A stretch of 7,266 bases of DNA from Bacteroidales bacterium. GTDB taxonomy: Bacteria; Bacteroidota; Bacteroidia; Bacteroidales; UBA932. The notes beneath the pieces are model-generated. The model was given only the letters and a program-made list of their open reading frames with translations, had not been told where the DNA came from and did not search any database. This document shows, one piece after another, positions 231 through 5,130 of this stretch. The stretch is taken from NCBI GenBank assembly GCA_024689525.1, contig JAILDI010000118.1:1-7266 (forward strand), read 5' to 3'. Both the position numbers and the translations under genes were made by a program. Numbering within the stretch: the first letter of the stretch is position 1; each line of letters opens with the position of its first letter.

Positions 231-272
231 AAATCGCTAAGTGCTTATTTTTCAGCAACTTAGCGATTTTTT
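231..272. terminator. Strong hairpin terminator, probably bidirectional
   Basis: Twelve perfect base pairs join 231-242 (AAATCGCTAAGT) and 258-269, with a further GCT/AGC pairing inside. On the plus strand the stem runs into six T (267-272). On the minus strand it is followed by TTTTCTTTT. It closes the island end and insulates it from the neighbouring DNA. Confidence 0.8.
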
Positions 273-275
273 CTG

Positions 276-288
276 GTGACTCCTACAG
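276..288. repeat. Second copy of the tRNA-Arg 3' end (putative attachment site)
   Basis: GTGACTCCTACAG is identical to 2827-2839, which covers the last bases of tRNA-Arg: the discriminator base, the 3' acceptor strand and four bases of the T stem. A free-standing copy of a tRNA 3' end is the classic scar left by tyrosine integrases that target tRNA genes. Thirteen bases could arise by chance, but the copy sits just after the same repeat-plus-terminator arrangement that borders the real tRNA, which makes chance unlikely. Confidence 0.6.
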
Positions 289-355
289 ACATTTATTGTC
301 AGTCATATTGAATCTCAGCCGATTTCTATCGTCCGCGAAGAGAATAGTCACTTCT

Positions 356-402
356 TATAATCTGCGGAATTCGGCAAAAAACAGTAAAAACCGCAGATTA
401 TA
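356..402. repeat. Left palindromic border of the ATPase unit
   Basis: TATAATCTGCGG (356-367) pairs perfectly with CCGCAGATTATA (391-402) around a 23-base A-rich loop. The outer arm extends to AATT at 371, giving the same 16 bases that end the right border in inverted orientation. The hairpin begins one base after the ATPase stop codon (406-404). Neither strand has a T-run after the stem, so a standard terminator role is not supported. Confidence 0.8.
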
Positions 403-403
403 A

Positions 404-1828
404 CTATATCTGAATATAAGGCTCGAAGAGGGAATCCAGCGTGATTATCTTTTGGAATTCGTCGGAATAAGCATTTCGCTTTACACCATTTGCGCTGATG
501 AGTATCTGATGAATGGACTTCGTCGATTTGGTATCCTCTTTAAAGCGGAGAGTCTTATTGAGAACTATATCATAGTACTCTGACGTTACTATATATGGCT
601 CTCTGGAATACTTGATTTCGCACAAATCAACAATGTCATCATTCCTGTCGATGATGAGGTCTATCTGGGCACCTTTATTCCCTCCTTTTCCTAAAGCCTG
701 CCATCCGCATACTCCGCTGATAACACCGGTAATACCCAACGCCTGCTTTATCTGGTTTACATGCAACAGACAAATGCGTTCAAACGCAAGACCGCACCAG
801 TTATTATAGGTTGGCTGATTCTGACTGTGCGACCAAAAGCGTTCGTCTTTCCTGTCATTGGCAAGAATGAACTTGTAATAGAATAGAGTGTATGGATCAA
901 TTAATTGAAAAATAGCCTTGTGAGAGGAATATCCGTAAGCGGCGTACTTTCGGATAAAGCCACATTGCTCCAGATCCGCAAGCAATTCTGTTAATTTGCC
1001 ATTGTCTTTGATACCGGAAGAAATCAGTTCTTCTCTGGTCATTCCAACTTTCCTGGCCCCCAATTGCTCAATTACTTTAATGTATGGTTCCGGATTCTTG
1101 AATAAGGACCGATAGAGTTCATTGAATTCGTTATGCAATTCACCATTCTCTTGAAAGAAGAGATCATCTATGTTCTGAGCGAGGCTCTTTTCGCGATCCA
1201 GGAGTGACCAGTAATAGGGAATTCCCCCCATAACCATTGAGCACTCGGTCAACTGCCTGCGGTTCATCCCAAGTTTGTAATGAGTAGCAAACTTCTCACA
1301 TTCCGCAAGTGTGAAAGGATTAATCCTGATTTTTGTGGTTACTCTACCATGGAGGCCTGCTTTATTCCGTATAATCTTGTTGATAATCCACGAGGTGGCT
1401 GAACCGCAGACTATCAATGTAATATCCTTCCTGGCAGAGGCCCAACCATTCCAGAAAAACTCAAGCGCTGAAATAAAACCGGACTTGGGTGTATCCATCC
1501 ATGGCATCTCATCGATGAAGATGACTTTCTTTTTCTTTGGGGATGCAATAATCAATTCCTTCAGTTGATTAAAGGCATCGAGCCAGGTTTTGGGCTTGAC
1601 TGTATCATATCCGTGAAACTTCATGGAAGTTTGCCACGCTGCCAACTGTTCCTTCATACCCGCCTTTGCCAGGCCGGCATGTTCGAAGGTGAATTTATAA
1701 TTGAACGTTTCCCGGACAAAGAAGGTCTTTCCAACGCGCCTGCGCCCGTAAACGGTTACAAACTGCGAATACTCAGAGTCGTTTGCCTTGAGCATTTTCT
1801 TCTTTTCTTCTACTCTGCCGATAATCAT
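404..1828 (-). CDS. AAA ATPase with C-terminal DUF234 nuclease-like domain
   Basis: The 474-residue protein belongs to the ATPase_2 plus DUF234 family (COG1672 type), common in archaea and Bacteroidota and of uncertain role. The N-terminal P-loop domain shows Walker A GRRRVGKT (28-35), Walker B VIFIDE (102-107) and a sensor-like CGSATSW (141-147). A winged-helix-like middle follows at about 250-300. The C-terminal part carries GLAFE (346-350), a QID aspartate (D390) and CEIK (403-406), a layout matching PD-(D/E)XK nuclease folds. It therefore probably binds and may cut nucleic acid in an ATP-dependent way, but no activity is established. The start at 1828 is the first ATG after a TATCTTTG -7 box. 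The gene is complete, sits between two related hairpins and reads against its neighbours. Its AT-richer composition suggests transfer. Confidence 0.85.
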   Translation of the reverse strand: MIIGRVEEKKKMLKANDSEYSQFVTVYGRRRVGKTFFVRETFNYKFTFEHAGLAKAGMKEQLAAWQTSMKFHGYDTVKPKTWLDAFNQLKELIIASPKKKKVIFIDEMPWMDTPKSGFISALEFFWNGWASARKDITLIVCGSATSWIINKIIRNKAGLHGRVTTKIRINPFTLAECEKFATHYKLGMNRRQLTECSMVMGGIPYYWSLLDREKSLAQNIDDLFFQENGELHNEFNELYRSLFKNPEPYIKVIEQLGARKVGMTREELISSGIKDNGKLTELLADLEQCGFIRKYAAYGYSSHKAIFQLIDPYTLFYYKFILANDRKDERFWSHSQNQPTYNNWCGLAFERICLLHVNQIKQALGITGVISGVCGWQALGKGGNKGAQIDLIIDRNDDIVDLCEIKYSREPYIVTSEYYDIVLNKTLRFKEDTKSTKSIHQILISANGVKRNAYSDEFQKIITLDSLFEPYIQI

Positions 1829-1851
1829 TTTTGCAAGTTTTATTTACCTTG

Positions 1852-1859
1852 CAAAGATA
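1852..1859 (-). promoter_or_regulatory. -7 box of the ATPase gene promoter
   Basis: On the minus strand TATCTTTG matches the Bacteroidota -7 consensus TAnnTTTG. It would place the transcript start near 1846, about 18 bases before the ATG. I see no TTTG at the -33 distance. That region instead falls on the inner arm of the palindrome at 1873-1919, so the palindrome may act as an operator. Confidence 0.55.
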
Positions 1860-1872
1860 ATAAAAAGTATTG

Positions 1873-1919
1873 TATAATCTGCGGAATTTTCAAAAATATC
1901 ATAAATTCCGCAGATTATA
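1873..1919. repeat. Right palindromic border of the ATPase unit
   Basis: A perfect 16-bp inverted repeat (1873-1888 TATAATCTGCGGAATT with 1904-1919) surrounds a 15-base A/T-rich loop. The arm is the same motif found at 356-402 beyond the other end of the gene. It covers the expected -33 region of the ATPase promoter. Confidence 0.85.
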
Positions 1920-1955
1920 GTGCACTTTCAATATTAAATATGACCGAAGAATGTA

Positions 1956-2109: not shown

Positions 2110-2547
2110 ATGAATCACAAAAGTATCCTCATGCCGCATACCTGCCAAAAGATTGGCTGGTGCCTTTTGATTCTCTTCGTTATCGTGGAGCTCGCAAATG
2201 CGCTGTTCGTCCACAACATCGATGTGGCCTGGCATTTCGCAAAGGCGTCTCACATTATCTTTATCGTGTCGATCTTCCTCATCTGCCTGTCGAAAGAGAA
2301 GGTGGAAGATGAAATGATTTCCGGCCTTCGCCTGAAGTCCATCGGGCGTGCGGCTTATGTATTTTTCGTTCTTTTCCTGATCATGAGTCTGTTCCTGGAA
2401 CTGAGATTCGCAACCCTCTTTCCGAGTTTCCCGGAAGATCTCGAACTCTACCTGAGCGAAGCATTCCTGATTTTCCTTCCGCTTCTTCTCTTCGTCCTGT
2501 ATTATGGGCCGTTCAAGTGGATGCTCTGGAAATCCCAAAAACAGTAA
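2110..2547 (+). CDS. Small four-helix membrane protein of unknown function
   Basis: The 145-residue protein has four hydrophobic segments at about 14-34, 42-60, 80-98 and 113-132. A charged cytoplasmic-looking loop SKEKVEDEMISGLRLKS (61-77) joins helices 2 and 3, and the C-terminus is basic. I cannot assign a named family. Small membrane proteins of this shape, with a charged EDE-type loop, often precede a YozG-like XRE regulator in Bacteroidota and Firmicutes. The next gene starts 5 bases after its stop, so the two form one operon driven by the promoter at 2051-2081. A role as membrane partner or sensor for that regulator is inference. The ATG at 2110 fits the promoter. An earlier ATG at 2099 encodes only MRLT and stops in overlap with this start. 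Confidence 0.8.
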   Translation: MNHKSILMPHTCQKIGWCLLILFVIVELANALFVHNIDVAWHFAKASHIIFIVSIFLICLSKEKVEDEMISGLRLKSIGRAAYVFFVLFLIMSLFLELRFATLFPSFPEDLELYLSEAFLIFLPLLLFVLYYGPFKWMLWKSQKQ

Positions 2548-2552
2548 GATCT

Positions 2553-2753
2553 ATGAAAAACACTGTCAGAGTAGAAAGAGCCATCAAAGACATCACCCAG
2601 CAGCAGCTGGCCGATGCTATTGGCGTGAGCCGGAACACCATCAATTCCATTGAGTCCGGAAAGTATGTCCCTTCCACGGTGCTGGCACTGAAAATTGCCC
2701 GATATTTCGAAAAGTCTACAGACTCTATCTTTCAATTGGAAGAGAATGATTGA
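2553..2753 (+). CDS. XRE-family helix-turn-helix regulator (YozG-like)
   Basis: This 66-residue single-domain DNA-binding protein has the XRE/HTH_3 core: TQQQLADAIGVSRNTINSIE, followed by SGKYVPS and LALKIARYFEKSTDSIF. The recognition helix is VSRNTINSIE. The frame is open upstream to an ATG at 2517, but that start lies inside the membrane protein gene. The ATG at 2553, 5 bases after the neighbour's stop, gives the usual family length and a typical MKNTVRVERA start. It probably regulates its own operon or an island function. Its stop lies 6 bases before the phased repeats of the island end. Confidence 0.9.
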   Translation: MKNTVRVERAIKDITQQQLADAIGVSRNTINSIESGKYVPSTVLALKIARYFEKSTDSIFQLEEND

Positions 2754-2759
2754 ATGGTT

Positions 2760-2780
2760 CGTTGTGCAAACGTTGTGCAA
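2760..2780. repeat. Pair of 11-bp-spaced direct repeats at the tRNA-side island end
   Basis: CGTTGTGCAA occurs at 2760-2769 and 2771-2780. The pair matches 200-219 in core sequence (GTGCAA), in 11-bp spacing, and in position before a hairpin and the 13-bp tRNA end (47 bp here, 57 bp there). Probable binding sites for an integrase or accessory protein, inferred from position. Confidence 0.6.
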
Positions 2781-2790
2781 TGTATATGAA

Positions 2791-2822
2791 AAACCCCATT
2801 AGAATGTGCTCTAATGGGGTTT
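2791..2822. terminator. Bidirectional terminator downstream of tRNA-Arg
   Basis: A 13-bp perfect stem (AAACCCCATTAGA at 2791-2803 with 2810-2822) encloses a 6-base loop. On the minus strand the stem is followed by five T (2793-2789), which fits termination of the rplS-tRNA-Arg transcript. On the plus strand the stem ends in TTTT and could end the XRE operon. Confidence 0.85.
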
Positions 2823-2826
2823 TGAA

Positions 2827-2839
2827 GTGACTCCTACAG
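2827..2839. repeat. tRNA-Arg 3' end copy of the attachment repeat
   Basis: GTGACTCCTACAG is identical to 276-288. It lies at the 3' end of the tRNA-Arg gene and extends one base beyond it. This would be the tRNA-side crossover region of the island. Confidence 0.6.
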
Positions 2840-2901
2840 GACTCAAACCTGTAACCTTTTGATCCGTAGTCAAATGCTCTATTCAATTGAGCTAAGGAGC
2901 C
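2828..2901 (-). tRNA. tRNA-Arg (anticodon ACG)
   Basis: The 74-base cloverleaf is complete. The acceptor GGCTCCT pairs with AGGAGTC (one G-T), the D stem is GCTC/GAGC, the anticodon stem TTTGA/TCAAA has loop CTACGGA, and the T stem is ACAGG/CCTGT. The anticodon ACG, with A34 read as inosine after deamination, decodes CGU, CGC and CGA. The discriminator is A and CCA is not encoded. It lies 27 bases after the rplS stop with no promoter between them, so it is probably co-transcribed with rplS. Its 3' end is the putative island integration site. Confidence 0.95.
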
Positions 2902-2905
2902 GTAC

Positions 2906-2928
2906 AAAGGGGCCTTTCGGTCACCTTT
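2906..2928. other. Hairpin between rplS and tRNA-Arg
   Basis: On the minus strand AAAGG/CCTTT closes an interrupted stem capped by a GAAA tetraloop between CC and GG. It starts right at the rplS stop codon (2931-2929). There is no T-run on the minus strand, so it looks more like a processing or mRNA-stabilising element than a terminator. On the plus strand it is followed by TTTTTATTTTT and could stop rightward read-through from the island. Confidence 0.5.
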
Positions 2929-3297
2929 TTATTTTTCAGCAACGTAGACTTTCTCGCGGATGCGTGCCTTCTTACCGGTGAGGTTGCGGAGGTAGAAGAT
3001 GCGGGCCCTGCGGACCTTGCCGTACTTGTTCACCTCGATGCTGTCGATGAAGGGGCTCTGCATGGGGAAAATCCTTTCCACACCAATGCCGCTGGAAACC
3101 TTGCGAACCGTAAAAGTCCTGGTGAAGGGATCCTGGCCTTTCATCTGGATGACGACACCGCGGAACTTCTGAAGCCTCTCTTTGTCGCCTTCTTTAATCC
3201 GGTAGGTAACGGTGATGGTGTCACCGGCCTTGAACTCCGGGAATTCGGCTGCTTTTCCTGTCTGGAAAGCCTGCTCTGCTATTTTAATCAAATCCAT
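2929..3297 (-). CDS. rplS: 50S ribosomal protein L19
   Basis: The 122-residue protein matches bacterial L19 along its whole length. Recognisable parts are [20 protein letters not shown], the FRGVVIQ strand, [18 protein letters not shown] and the C-terminal [11 protein letters not shown] with [11 protein letters not shown]19 sits at the 30S-50S interface and supports subunit bridging. It has its own promoter right behind dnaJ rather than the rpsP-rimM-trmD context known from other phyla. A strong AGGAG lies 8 bases before the ATG, and the leader can fold. The tRNA-Arg gene follows in the same direction. Confidence 0.97.
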
Positions 3298-3305
3298 TTT
3301 AATAT

Positions 3306-3310
3306 CTCCT
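3306..3310 (-). promoter_or_regulatory. Ribosome binding site of rplS
   Basis: AGGAG lies 8 bases before the rplS ATG. Strong Shine-Dalgarno matches are less usual in Bacteroidota, where many genes lack them. This one confirms the start at 3297. Confidence 0.6.
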
Positions 3311-3318
3311 AATTAGTG

Positions 3319-3355
3319 GCAACATCGCATTCTAAACTCCTGTGCGAGAGGTTGC
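3319..3355 (-). promoter_or_regulatory. Leader hairpin upstream of rplS
   Basis: In the minus-strand leader GCAAC (3355-3351) pairs with GTTGC (3323-3319), and inside it TCGCA (3347-3343) pairs with TGCGA (3329-3325), separated by a small asymmetric internal loop. It lies between the promoter and the ribosome binding site. L19 leader elements that act in autoregulation are known from Firmicutes. Whether this is an analogue is inference. Confidence 0.4.
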
Positions 3356-3371
3356 GTCGTTTTTGGGACTG

Positions 3372-3402
3372 CAAAGGTAGAAATTTTTTTTCAATCACCA
3401 AA
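3372..3402 (-). promoter_or_regulatory. Bacteroides-type promoter of rplS
   Basis: On the minus strand TTTG (3402-3399), 19 bp, TACCTTTG (3379-3372) matches the -33/-7 consensus fully. The start of transcription should fall near 3365, giving a leader of about 68 bases. The -33 box lies 5 bases beyond the dnaJ stop codon. Confidence 0.85.
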
Positions 3403-3407
3403 AATAA

Positions 3408-4601
3408 TTAGAAAATATTTTTCTCTTTTTCGAAAATGGCATTGTCGTCCCTGTTGGGAGAAGGCGTGAACGTGCTGCTGGAGCGCATTGCCTCGAGGGC
3501 CTCTTTCTCGCTACGGGACAGCTTGTGGGGCATCCAGACAAGGATTTTCACGTACAGGTCACCCGTACCGCGGCCGTAGCCCTGGACCGAGGGTAGTCCC
3601 CTGCCCCTAAGACGAATGACCGTACCGCTCTGCGTGCCGGGATCCAGTTTTTGGCGGACAGTTCCCGTAAGGGTGGGGATTGTTACTTCGCAGCCAAGGA
3701 CAGCATCCGGCATGGAGATGATCTTCGTGTAGAACAGGTTGTTGCCATCGCGCTTGAGTTCTGCGTGGGGAGTTTCGTGGACAACCACAAGGAGGTCTCC
3801 GTTCACTCCGCCCTGCTGGCCTGCGTGACCCTCGCGGGGAACCGTGATCTGCATACCTTCTTCAACACCCGCGGGTATGCGCACGCGTACGGTTTCCCTG
3901 CGCCTCTCCAGACCGGTACCGCCGCACCTGCGGCAGGGATTGCTCACCACCTTTCCGGTGCCGCCGCACTGGGGACAGGTGGAGATAGTGTAGCTGGTCA
4001 TACCGAAGAGCCCGCGCATTGCCTGACGCACCTGGCCCTGTCCGTGACAAGTGGGGCAGGTTTTTATGTCGGATGAATTCTTTGTGCCTTTTCCGCCGCA
4101 TTCCTGGCAGGGACGGTTGCGCTCGATGGTTACTTCCTTCTCGCATCCGTTTGCAATCTCCTCAAGCGTAAGCTTCACGCTGGTGCGGATGTCCCGTCCG
4201 CGGAATACACGCTGGCCGCTCTGTGAGCTGCCACCGCCGCCGAAGAAATCGCTGAATCCACCGCCGCCACCAAAGCTGAAGCTCCCGCCGAACACGTTGC
4301 GGAGTATCTCGTTCAGGTCGAACCCGCCGAAGTCGAAGCCGCCTGCTCCGCCGCCCATCTGGTCGCCGGCGAAGCCGAACTGGTCGTAGCGCGCCTTCTT
4401 GTCCGGGTCGCTGAGCACGGAGTAGGCCTCCGCCGCCTCCTTGAAGCGTTCCTCGGCCTCCTTCTTCTCCGCATCGGTGCCGTTCACCCACCTGTCAGGA
4501 TGCCATTTGAGCGCCAGCTTGCGGTAGGCGCTCTTTATTTCATCGGCCGATGACGTCTTCTGTACGCCCAGGACCTCGTAGTAGTCTCTTTTCTGTGCCA
4601 T
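3408..4601 (-). CDS. dnaJ: Chaperone protein DnaJ (Hsp40)
   Basis: DnaJ stimulates the DnaK ATPase and delivers unfolded clients to it in the cytoplasm. The 397 residues show the full type I order: J domain with HPD at 34-36, Gly/Phe-rich stretch at about 77-128, and four zinc-binding CxxCxGxG repeats at 165-172 (CQECGGKG), 182-189 (CPTCHGQG), 209-216 (CPQCGGTG) and 223-230 (CRRCGGTG). The two client-binding C-terminal domains follow. A short charged insertion ([14 protein letters not shown]) follows HPD, and the protein is about 20 residues longer than E. coli DnaJ. The start lies 4 bases after the grpE stop, and an AGGAG overlaps the last grpE codons, so the pair is translationally linked. 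No dnaK is visible in the window. Confidence 0.97.
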
Positions 4602-4605
4602 CGTA

Positions 4606-5130
4606 TTATGCTCCTACAACGACTTTTGCATACCTGAGCACTTTGTCGCCCAGGGTATAGCCCGTCTGAACGACGTCTATCACCTTGCCTTTCATATCCT
4701 CCGACGGTGCGGGGAACGTGGTCACGGCCTCGTGGAACTCGGTGTCGAACTCCTTGTCCTTGGCCTCGATCTTCTCCAGCCCCTTGCCTTTCAGATATGC
4801 GGTGAGTTTATTGAAAATCAGCTTTGTGCCTTCCTTGGCAGCCTCGCTGTCGGTACTCTTCTCCAGCTGGGCGAGCGCAATCTCACAGTCGTCCAGGATG
4901 GGAAGCAGACCCTTTATGGTATCGGCCGATGCGCTGGACACAAGTGCCAGCTTCTCCTCCGCCGTGCGGCGGCGGAAGGTGTCGAATTCCGCCATCAAGC
5001 GGAGGTAATCGGCCTTAGAATCGGCCAGGGCCTTCTCTTTCTCTTCCAGGGCCTTTTTGGCCTCGTCAAGTTCTGCAGAAACCTTCTTTTCCGCAGGCTG
5101 GGCATTATCTTTTTTCTTCTTCTCTGCCAT
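4606..5130 (-). CDS. grpE: Nucleotide exchange factor GrpE
   Basis: GrpE releases ADP from DnaK and works with DnaJ, whose gene follows after 4 bases. From the ATG at 5130 the protein has 174 residues. A lysine-rich N-terminus leads into a long charged helix ([20 protein letters not shown]), then the dimer-helix signature [19 protein letters not shown]. The C-terminal beta domain ends [19 protein letters not shown] and [20 protein letters not shown]. The frame is open to an ATG at 5193, but the extra 21 residues (MADMGRWQAF...) do not look like GrpE, whereas [10 protein letters not shown] is a typical start. The promoter -7 box at 5211-5218 would allow either. Confidence 0.95.

Follow-up and report, generated by a model that had tools for sequence, protein, structure and literature searches.

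Private palindromes around a candidate defence ATPase gene are probable operators and cassette borders

Why should a single ATPase gene lie between two copies of the same palindrome? The question is raised by a 7,266-nucleotide stretch of DNA from a Bacteroidales bacterium (the window, analysed over its whole length; Table 1). At up to three mismatches, TATAATCTGCGG-N23-CCGCAGATTATA was found exactly twice in the window, compared with none of 200 dinucleotide shuffles containing two matches (mean 0.00). The original prediction had counted four copies of one motif; these proved to be four half-sites in two hairpins of 47 bp, whose equal 23-nucleotide spacing had not been pointed out before. A repeat search of the window confirmed that the 16-mers at the outer ends (356-371 and 1904-1919) are inverted repeats without a mismatch and, as also stated before, the ATPase ORF is the sole gene between the hairpins. 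When 355-403 is taken, the left hairpin can have 13-bp arms and therefore abuts the stop codon of the ATPase ORF, in agreement with the earlier placement of this hairpin directly by the stop codon. The remaining genes that could be named in the window are ordinary ones (L19, DnaJ, GrpE, DUF1232, glutamine synthetase and HTH_3 in Pfam). A direct repeat, GTGACTCCTACAG, is present at 276-288 and 2827-2839, where the right copy forms the 3′ end of a tRNA-Arg gene, and the cassette lies within an apparent tRNA-Arg-bounded island of about 2.5 kb. Pfam searches of window ORFs found no integrase inside this island.

Table 1. Coordinates of the features of the palindrome-flanked gene and its surroundings in the window
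Feature	Position	Strand	Remark
Left palindrome (downstream of gene)	356..402		TATAATCTGCGG-N23-CCGCAGATTATA
PDC-S27 gene, 474 aa: AAA/STAND-like ATPase + winged helix + PD-(D/E)XK-like	404..1828	-	
PD-(D/E)XK-like core, residues 350-406	611..781	-	E350, Q388, D390, E404, K406
Winged helix-turn-helix, residues 247-309	902..1090	-	AlphaFold2 model
Codon of Asp275	1004..1006	-	Top covarying residue with palindrome sequence
Bacteroidota-type -7 promoter box TATCTTTG	1852..1859	-	31-24 nt before ATG
Right palindrome (upstream of gene)	1873..1919		Upstream of -7 box, over -33 region
Cassette palindrome-gene-palindrome	356..1919		Repeat unit 1517 bp = one gene + one palindrome
Flank directly after single palindrome in L047	1920..2004	+	
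tRNA-Arg	2827-2901	-	

What kind of protein is encoded between the palindromes? It had been described as ATPase_2-DUF234. ATPase_2 was recovered in the N-terminal part of the protein (46 bits against a Pfam cut-off of 33.2), whereas DUF234 fell below its cut-off (17.1 against 22.5 bits). A full-length match was obtained with the PADLOC family PDC-S27 (PDLC04984, 636.7 bits, E=5.9e-192, residues 2-468 on profile positions 4-473 of 474). Features of STAND/AAA ATPases of the PF01637 type are present, namely a P-loop, Walker B and an AAA fold followed by a winged helix. An AlphaFold2 model (mean pLDDT 92.2, pTM 0.88) contains helices 247-257, 265-270 and 279-288 with a wing at 292-297 and 305-309, and in our own reading of this model residues 247-309 form a winged helix-turn-helix (wHTH). 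The three putative nuclease residues named in the original prediction, D390, E404 and K406, are present and near-invariant among 220 family members (216, 220 and 217 of 220), as are the Walker residues; E350 is kept in 219 of 220. In the model, strands 371-378, 387-395 and 399-406 carry D390, E404 and K406, and E350 lies in helix 339-355. The D...(D/E)XK strands and helix Glu of a PD-(D/E)XK superfamily core can thus be recognised in the model, and a nuclease is predicted. Matches listed in a fold search with the whole model fell mainly in residues 1-354, so that this search barely tested the C-terminal nuclease-like region. The fold of residues 1-320 was closest to PABY2304 (2qen) and SSO1545 (2fna), followed by NLR and CED-4 proteins. 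A PDB sequence search gave just two weak matches, and NCBIfam named neither of two proteins tested. Relatives of the ATPase exist on plasmids (up to 43.3% identity) and phages (up to 38.6%). In the accessible part of PMC12988326, PDC-S27 and PDC-S01 are ATPase domains fused to PD-(D/E)XK members, and validation is said to be pending for most PDCs; PDC-S27 is an unvalidated candidate defence family.

Is the hairpin tied to this gene elsewhere? Scanning GTDB species contigs for the exact arms with a loop of 15-32 nt gave 27 stretches in 26 genomes, mostly of rumen Bacteroidales, with some Lachnospiraceae and Eubacterium (record titles). A relative of the ATPase was detected by tblastn in 22 of the 27, at full-length identities from 99% down to about 40% (two truncated matches had 36% and 37%); because one gene is split between the adjoining stretches L002 and L015, the 22 stretches represent 21 genes. 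The arms were exact by design of the scan and the loop was free, and 40 of the 42 palindromes listed (window included) had a loop of 23 or 24 nt. Five stretches lacked the ATPase: L016 is a gene-less site, L011 a solo palindrome, L020 carries a different gene (see below), L023 keeps a promoter like that of L022 before another gene, and the L025 hairpin is probably a chance match. At up to three mismatches and a fixed 23-nt loop, each of the 26 genomes contained three palindromes at most, and viral_contigs contained no exact palindrome match. A solo palindrome with one mismatch was observed at L049:12730-12776, about 8 kb from a complete cassette of the same genome, and a variant form, TATAGTGTGCGG...CCGCACATTATA, at L050:6683-6729, close to the end of a contig. 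A wide occurrence of the palindromes with no link to the gene, which would have told against the original prediction, is contradicted by the 22 of 27 stretches that carry the ATPase. Existence of the same ATPase without these palindromes, the other such observation, is true of homologues, but most of those sampled have a different upstream palindrome of their own.

This was found by sampling PDC-S27 regardless of motif: in the order of genome G009 (at least 68 of 393 genomes positive, E<=1e-60, best three candidates per genome), the family of a Lachnospiraceae genome (at least 38 of 200, E<=1e-60, best seven), the phylum of G009 (at least 21 of 395, E<=1e-100, best three scored) and the family of G009 (at least 56 of 199, E<=1e-100, best seven scored). 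Leaving out 20 of the 220 unique ORFs, which were motif-selected loci or had short flanks, gave 200 motif-unselected loci with enough flank; this set includes orthologues, and its counts are therefore not independent. An upstream palindrome (-175 to 0, score of at least 11) was present in 147 of the 200 loci, as compared with 2 of 200 sequences randomised by first-order Markov resampling, 5 of 186 regions far upstream, 1 of 200 inside the gene and 10 of 29 regions upstream of PDC-S01 genes (29 control genes of one subfamily, found with PDLC04787). Downstream palindromes were found in 61 of 200 loci, versus 6 of 200 randomised and 5 of 29 PDC-S01 loci. Matching palindromes on both sides occurred in 31 of 200, versus 128 of 39,800 mismatched pairs (0.32%) and none of 29 PDC-S01 genes; in a minority of sampled members a matching palindrome lies just past the stop codon. 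At least two palindromes sharing an arm were found somewhere in the flanks of 70 loci, and a pair of upstream palindromes with an arm in common in 35 of 200 PDC-S27 loci versus 3 of 29 PDC-S01 loci. The motif varies from member to member, and a single motif shared by the whole family was rejected on this ground. The window's motif is thus not family-wide, while the palindrome architecture largely is. Separately, a PDC-S27 gene with two upstream palindromes at L018:700-2480 belongs to a unit that, as a whole, has one and the same terminator-like sequence (about 40 bp) on either side.

We next consider where the palindromes lie relative to the promoter. The Bacteroidota -7 box has the consensus TAnnTTTG. 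In the window, 13 bp separate this box from the right palindrome, which lies upstream of it and should thus be absent from the mRNA of that promoter. At 102 measurable loci (a palindrome plus a TAnnTTTG box, a short consensus, near -30; motif-selected loci included), the palindrome nearest the gene was upstream of the box in 75, spanned it in 27 and was downstream in none; the expected -33 region was overlapped in 65 of 102. This placement points to an operator in DNA rather than to an RNA leader. Palindromes do form hairpins and the left one stands directly after a stop codon, as would suit a 5′ leader structure and a terminator; the position of the upstream palindrome, before or over the -7 box at every measurable locus, disfavours this RNA-level reading, and we consider it highly improbable.

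If the palindromes are operators, which protein reads them? Covariation was analysed in 144 of the 220 members, the 76 others being left out for lack of a callable motif, by asking whether parts of the protein are more alike than overall identity predicts when motifs are alike; structure was not used. The best 20-residue window was 271-290 (r=0.179, reached by 0 of 300 permutations); the three windows ranked after it overlap with it, and a separate window, 376-395, was marginal (p=0.043). The best single column was residue 275 (r=0.199, 0 of 300 permutations). Removal of motif-selected loci (129 proteins) left the window at 0 of 500 permutations and residue 275 at p=0.004. After thinning to a single protein from each 55% identity cluster, residue 275 remained on top (family-wise p=0.028 for 64 proteins and 0.046 for 59 motif-unselected ones) and the 20-residue window lost significance (p=0.19; 0.73 in the motif-unselected set, where another window came first). 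A set thinned to 45% identity contained 8 proteins and was ignored; an earlier run with 83 motifs gave the same peak barely above the 95% limit (0.130 versus 0.125). Among the 64 clusters, Ser or Thr at 275 went with GCCA in 15 of 22 versus 0 of 42, and Asp or Glu with GCGG in 13 of 28 versus 2 of 36, base classes that were picked after the column result had been seen; association of Asn275 with TGGCT was not significant (1 of 6 versus 1 of 58). In the AlphaFold2 model, helix 279-288 is the third helix of the wHTH and residue 275 stands just before it. The protein thus seems to read its own palindrome through a winged-helix recognition helix. The original suggestion of a gene that recognises its own borders gains support from this covariation, which is a property of sequences.

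Recognition of this kind could also serve to mark self: occupied palindromes would keep the nuclease inactive, and lost occupancy, as on phage or plasmid entry, would free a toxic or defensive activity. PDC-S27 is a defence candidate, its N-terminal 320 residues resemble NLR and CED-4 proteins after the two archaeal ATPases, and the Walker and nuclease residues are near-invariant, all of which suits such a role. We found no defence phenotype for PDC-S27 in the accessible parts of the literature, and we regard this role as rather unlikely.

Do the palindromes also mark the ends of a unit that comes and goes, as the prediction of a one-gene mobile cassette had it? L003 and L026 are 80.7% identical from palindrome to palindrome, and nothing else but the palindromes aligns in their surroundings (17 kb and 14 kb). 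Exactly one palindrome is retained at three loci in relatives that have the same flank but lack the gene: 1) the window agrees with L047 (G015) at 78 of 80 positions on the left and 79 of 82 in the right flank, and the solo palindrome of L047 is identical to the window's left palindrome at 47 of 47; 2) L287 and L288 are 98.0 and 97.1% identical to L343 (G1128) in the left flank through the palindrome, and the right flank of L343 matches L288 at 86.9% over 998 bp, as against just 150 bp before a break for L287; and 3) L283 agrees with L348, L349 and L350 at 98.4, 97.5 and 92.0% in the left flank through one palindrome, while its right flank aligns to L348 and L349 again only after an unaligned stretch of about 670 bp. 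The gene beside L283 is presumably recA. At the first and third loci the solo loop resembles that of the palindrome downstream of the gene, and at the second that of the palindrome upstream of the gene in L287, indicating that either side can stay. L351 has the same left flank as L283 (92.8%) without a palindrome and agrees with L350 on either side of it; reading this one pair base by base revealed no apparent target-site duplication of the kind expected of an IS element with terminal inverted repeats. L355, L356 and L358 likewise have the left flank of L283 in common with the palindrome absent. PDC-S27 was not found by tblastn in L047, L343, L348-L351, L355, L356 or L358. The cassette claim thus stands as regards borders and presence or absence. 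A separate observation is that L355 and L356 join the left flank of L283 to the right flank of L288 with the palindrome absent, apparently by deletion of the stretch between two cassette sites.

These loci belong to a first joined-flank set (L283, L287 and L019) of 20, comprising four source genomes, 13 inspected loci and three (L360-L362) with a gene check only. At the L019 site, only the left flank is shared by L352, L354 and L359, which lack both gene and palindrome; L353 and L357 have a left flank in common with L287 and L288 that ends 54 and 85 bp before the palindrome. In a second set (L105, L099 and L112; 12 loci), the four inspected were all at the L105 site. The gene is present in L365 and L367, and L366 and L368 have other DNA with neither gene nor palindrome, so that no one-palindrome site was seen among these four. 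In L366 and L368, a small ORF, which we take to be an MNT-type nucleotidyltransferase, was observed in place of the cassette.

Identity had also been expected to drop exactly at the borders. This is only partly borne out, in that similarity between the window and L009 continues 88 bp beyond the left palindrome. Window positions 268-1931 are 97.6% identical to L048 and the neighbouring 2465-5011 are 75.9% identical, a difference suggesting a recent move between species of the cassette together with 88 bp on its left. Positions 1958-2004 are similar to a promoter region found before another PDC-S27 gene, that of L052; two divergent ATPase genes may thus once have stood on either side of the right palindrome. 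In the high-identity pairs L153/L163 and L155/L157, similarity did not end at palindromes on both sides. The PDC-S27 units of L153 and L163, which are 97.4% identical, stand in different contexts and end in GGCACC; a near-identical direct repeat, CTCAAAYTCCTTCGGCACC, at both ends of the L163 unit suggests another mode of integration. None of 39 near-identical pairs (at least 92% over more than 900 bp; best three or seven candidates per genome scored) came from the same genome, which gives no sign of replicative transposition.

Are operators alone sufficient to account for these observations? The palindromes would then be autoregulation sites, the downstream copy would serve looping or a read-through block, and one-palindrome sites would arise by passive slipped-strand or homologous deletion; palindromes promote deletion between direct repeats. 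The promoter positions described above favour this account, as do several loci with upstream copies alone, some in tandem (L018, L021), and the low number of window-type palindromes in each of the 26 genomes, which speaks against dispersal. It leaves unexplained why, in unrelated contexts, similarity stops at a palindrome on either side, why PDC-S01 genes lie between the same palindromes, and why a solo palindrome is found where a close relative has none (L350 versus L351). We give this account a serious chance, somewhat short of even.

The PDC-S01 genes concern two loci. An array at L026:859-3889 reads palindrome, PDC-S27, palindrome, PDC-S01 (AAA_14-DUF4143), palindrome, and the PDC-S01 gene of L020 has a full palindrome on one side and a half palindrome on the other. 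Such cargo of another gene family could indicate that the cassettes, like those of integrons or like MITEs, are mobilised in trans by a recombinase or transposase, with the ATPase as a passenger regulated by its border. The apparent tRNA-Arg-bounded island around the cassette and the lack of a recombinase or integrase match in Pfam searches of ten window ORFs fit such a mover. Covariation of the palindrome with the recognition helix of its own cargo argues against it, and a shared recombinase would not favour palindromes that differ among family members; we judge it unlikely.

From these comparisons of sequences, it is probable that the protein binds its private palindrome and that this palindrome is both an operator and a border at which a one-gene cassette is gained or lost. 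Such a combined role would involve the following: 1) the protein would bind its own palindrome as an AAA assembly; 2) binding at the upstream copy would repress the gene; 3) the palindromes on both sides would be points where a unit of about 1.5 kb, one gene with one palindrome, enters or leaves a resident palindrome; and 4), less securely, the protein's own PD-(D/E)XK site might nick or cut at the palindrome and promote exchange, which would make the unit a self-recognising selfish or defence cassette. The main rival to exchange driven by its own nuclease is passive deletion between repeats. Such deletion, too, would leave one palindrome, and gain and loss look alike at the gene-less sites. 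Carried further, PDC-S27 genes would be self-recognising mobile cassettes in which an Orc/STAND-like ATPase follows a palindrome code at residue 275 and PD-(D/E)XK activity drives insertion or release at a resident palindrome; we find this doubtful. The code would be a simple one, with Asp or Glu275 for GCGG, Ser or Thr275 for GCCA and Asn275 tending to TGGCT.

How does this layout compare with known systems? REPtrons consist of a RAYT/TnpA-REP gene flanked by REP palindromes that co-evolve with the protein. The PDC-S27 cassettes likewise have a single gene between copies of a palindrome co-evolving with its protein. They differ from REPtrons in encoding an AAA-wHTH-PD-(D/E)XK-like protein (Pfam and model) rather than an HUH-type Y1 transposase, and in having at most three palindromes per genome rather than many dispersed ones. 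Integron gene cassettes consist of a gene plus an attC site and depend on attI and the IntI integrase. The unit studied here is again a gene plus one palindromic site, with a site-gene-site-gene-site array in L026, and the gene-less relatives L047, L343 and L348-L350 keep one site, whether by gain or by loss. Unlike integron cassettes, each PDC-S27 member has its own palindrome, with a promoter inside the cassette, and an integrase was not found among the ten window ORFs searched. With these likenesses in layout, the differences from REPtrons and no integrase in the window ORFs, the cassettes represent a varied layout on an unrelated protein. The alignments with PABY2304 and SSO1545, the archaeal ATPases, end at residue 319-320, and hence barely test the C-terminal nuclease-like region. 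PDC-S01 is alike in fusing an ATPase to a PD-(D/E)XK member (PMC12988326, accessible part) and in having genes between window-type palindromes in L026 and L020; it differs in that none of the 29 genes sampled from one subfamily has matching palindromes on both sides.

No description of palindromes around the PDC-S27 family was found in the open-licence full-text literature searched (preprints and most subscription journals lie outside it) or in the accessible parts of PMC10210955, PMC12988326, PMC13356809, PMC5760070 and PMC1913061. The PDC-S27 of PMC12988326 is the same protein family; palindromes, a recognition helix and cassette borders are not mentioned in its accessible part. PDC-S27 is counted in thousands in surveys of putative defence genes, whose accessible text does not describe its mechanism. 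Our data supply a candidate DNA ligand for each member of the family, predict which residue sets specificity, and add natural sites of known flanks where the cassette is either present or absent. Should the protein move itself, some of the genes now counted as defence would be selfish DNA. Self-mobility, if true, would amount to a system that moves DNA with none of the known types of transposase or integrase, that occurs in Bacteroidota and Bacillota and that has so far been classed as candidate defence.
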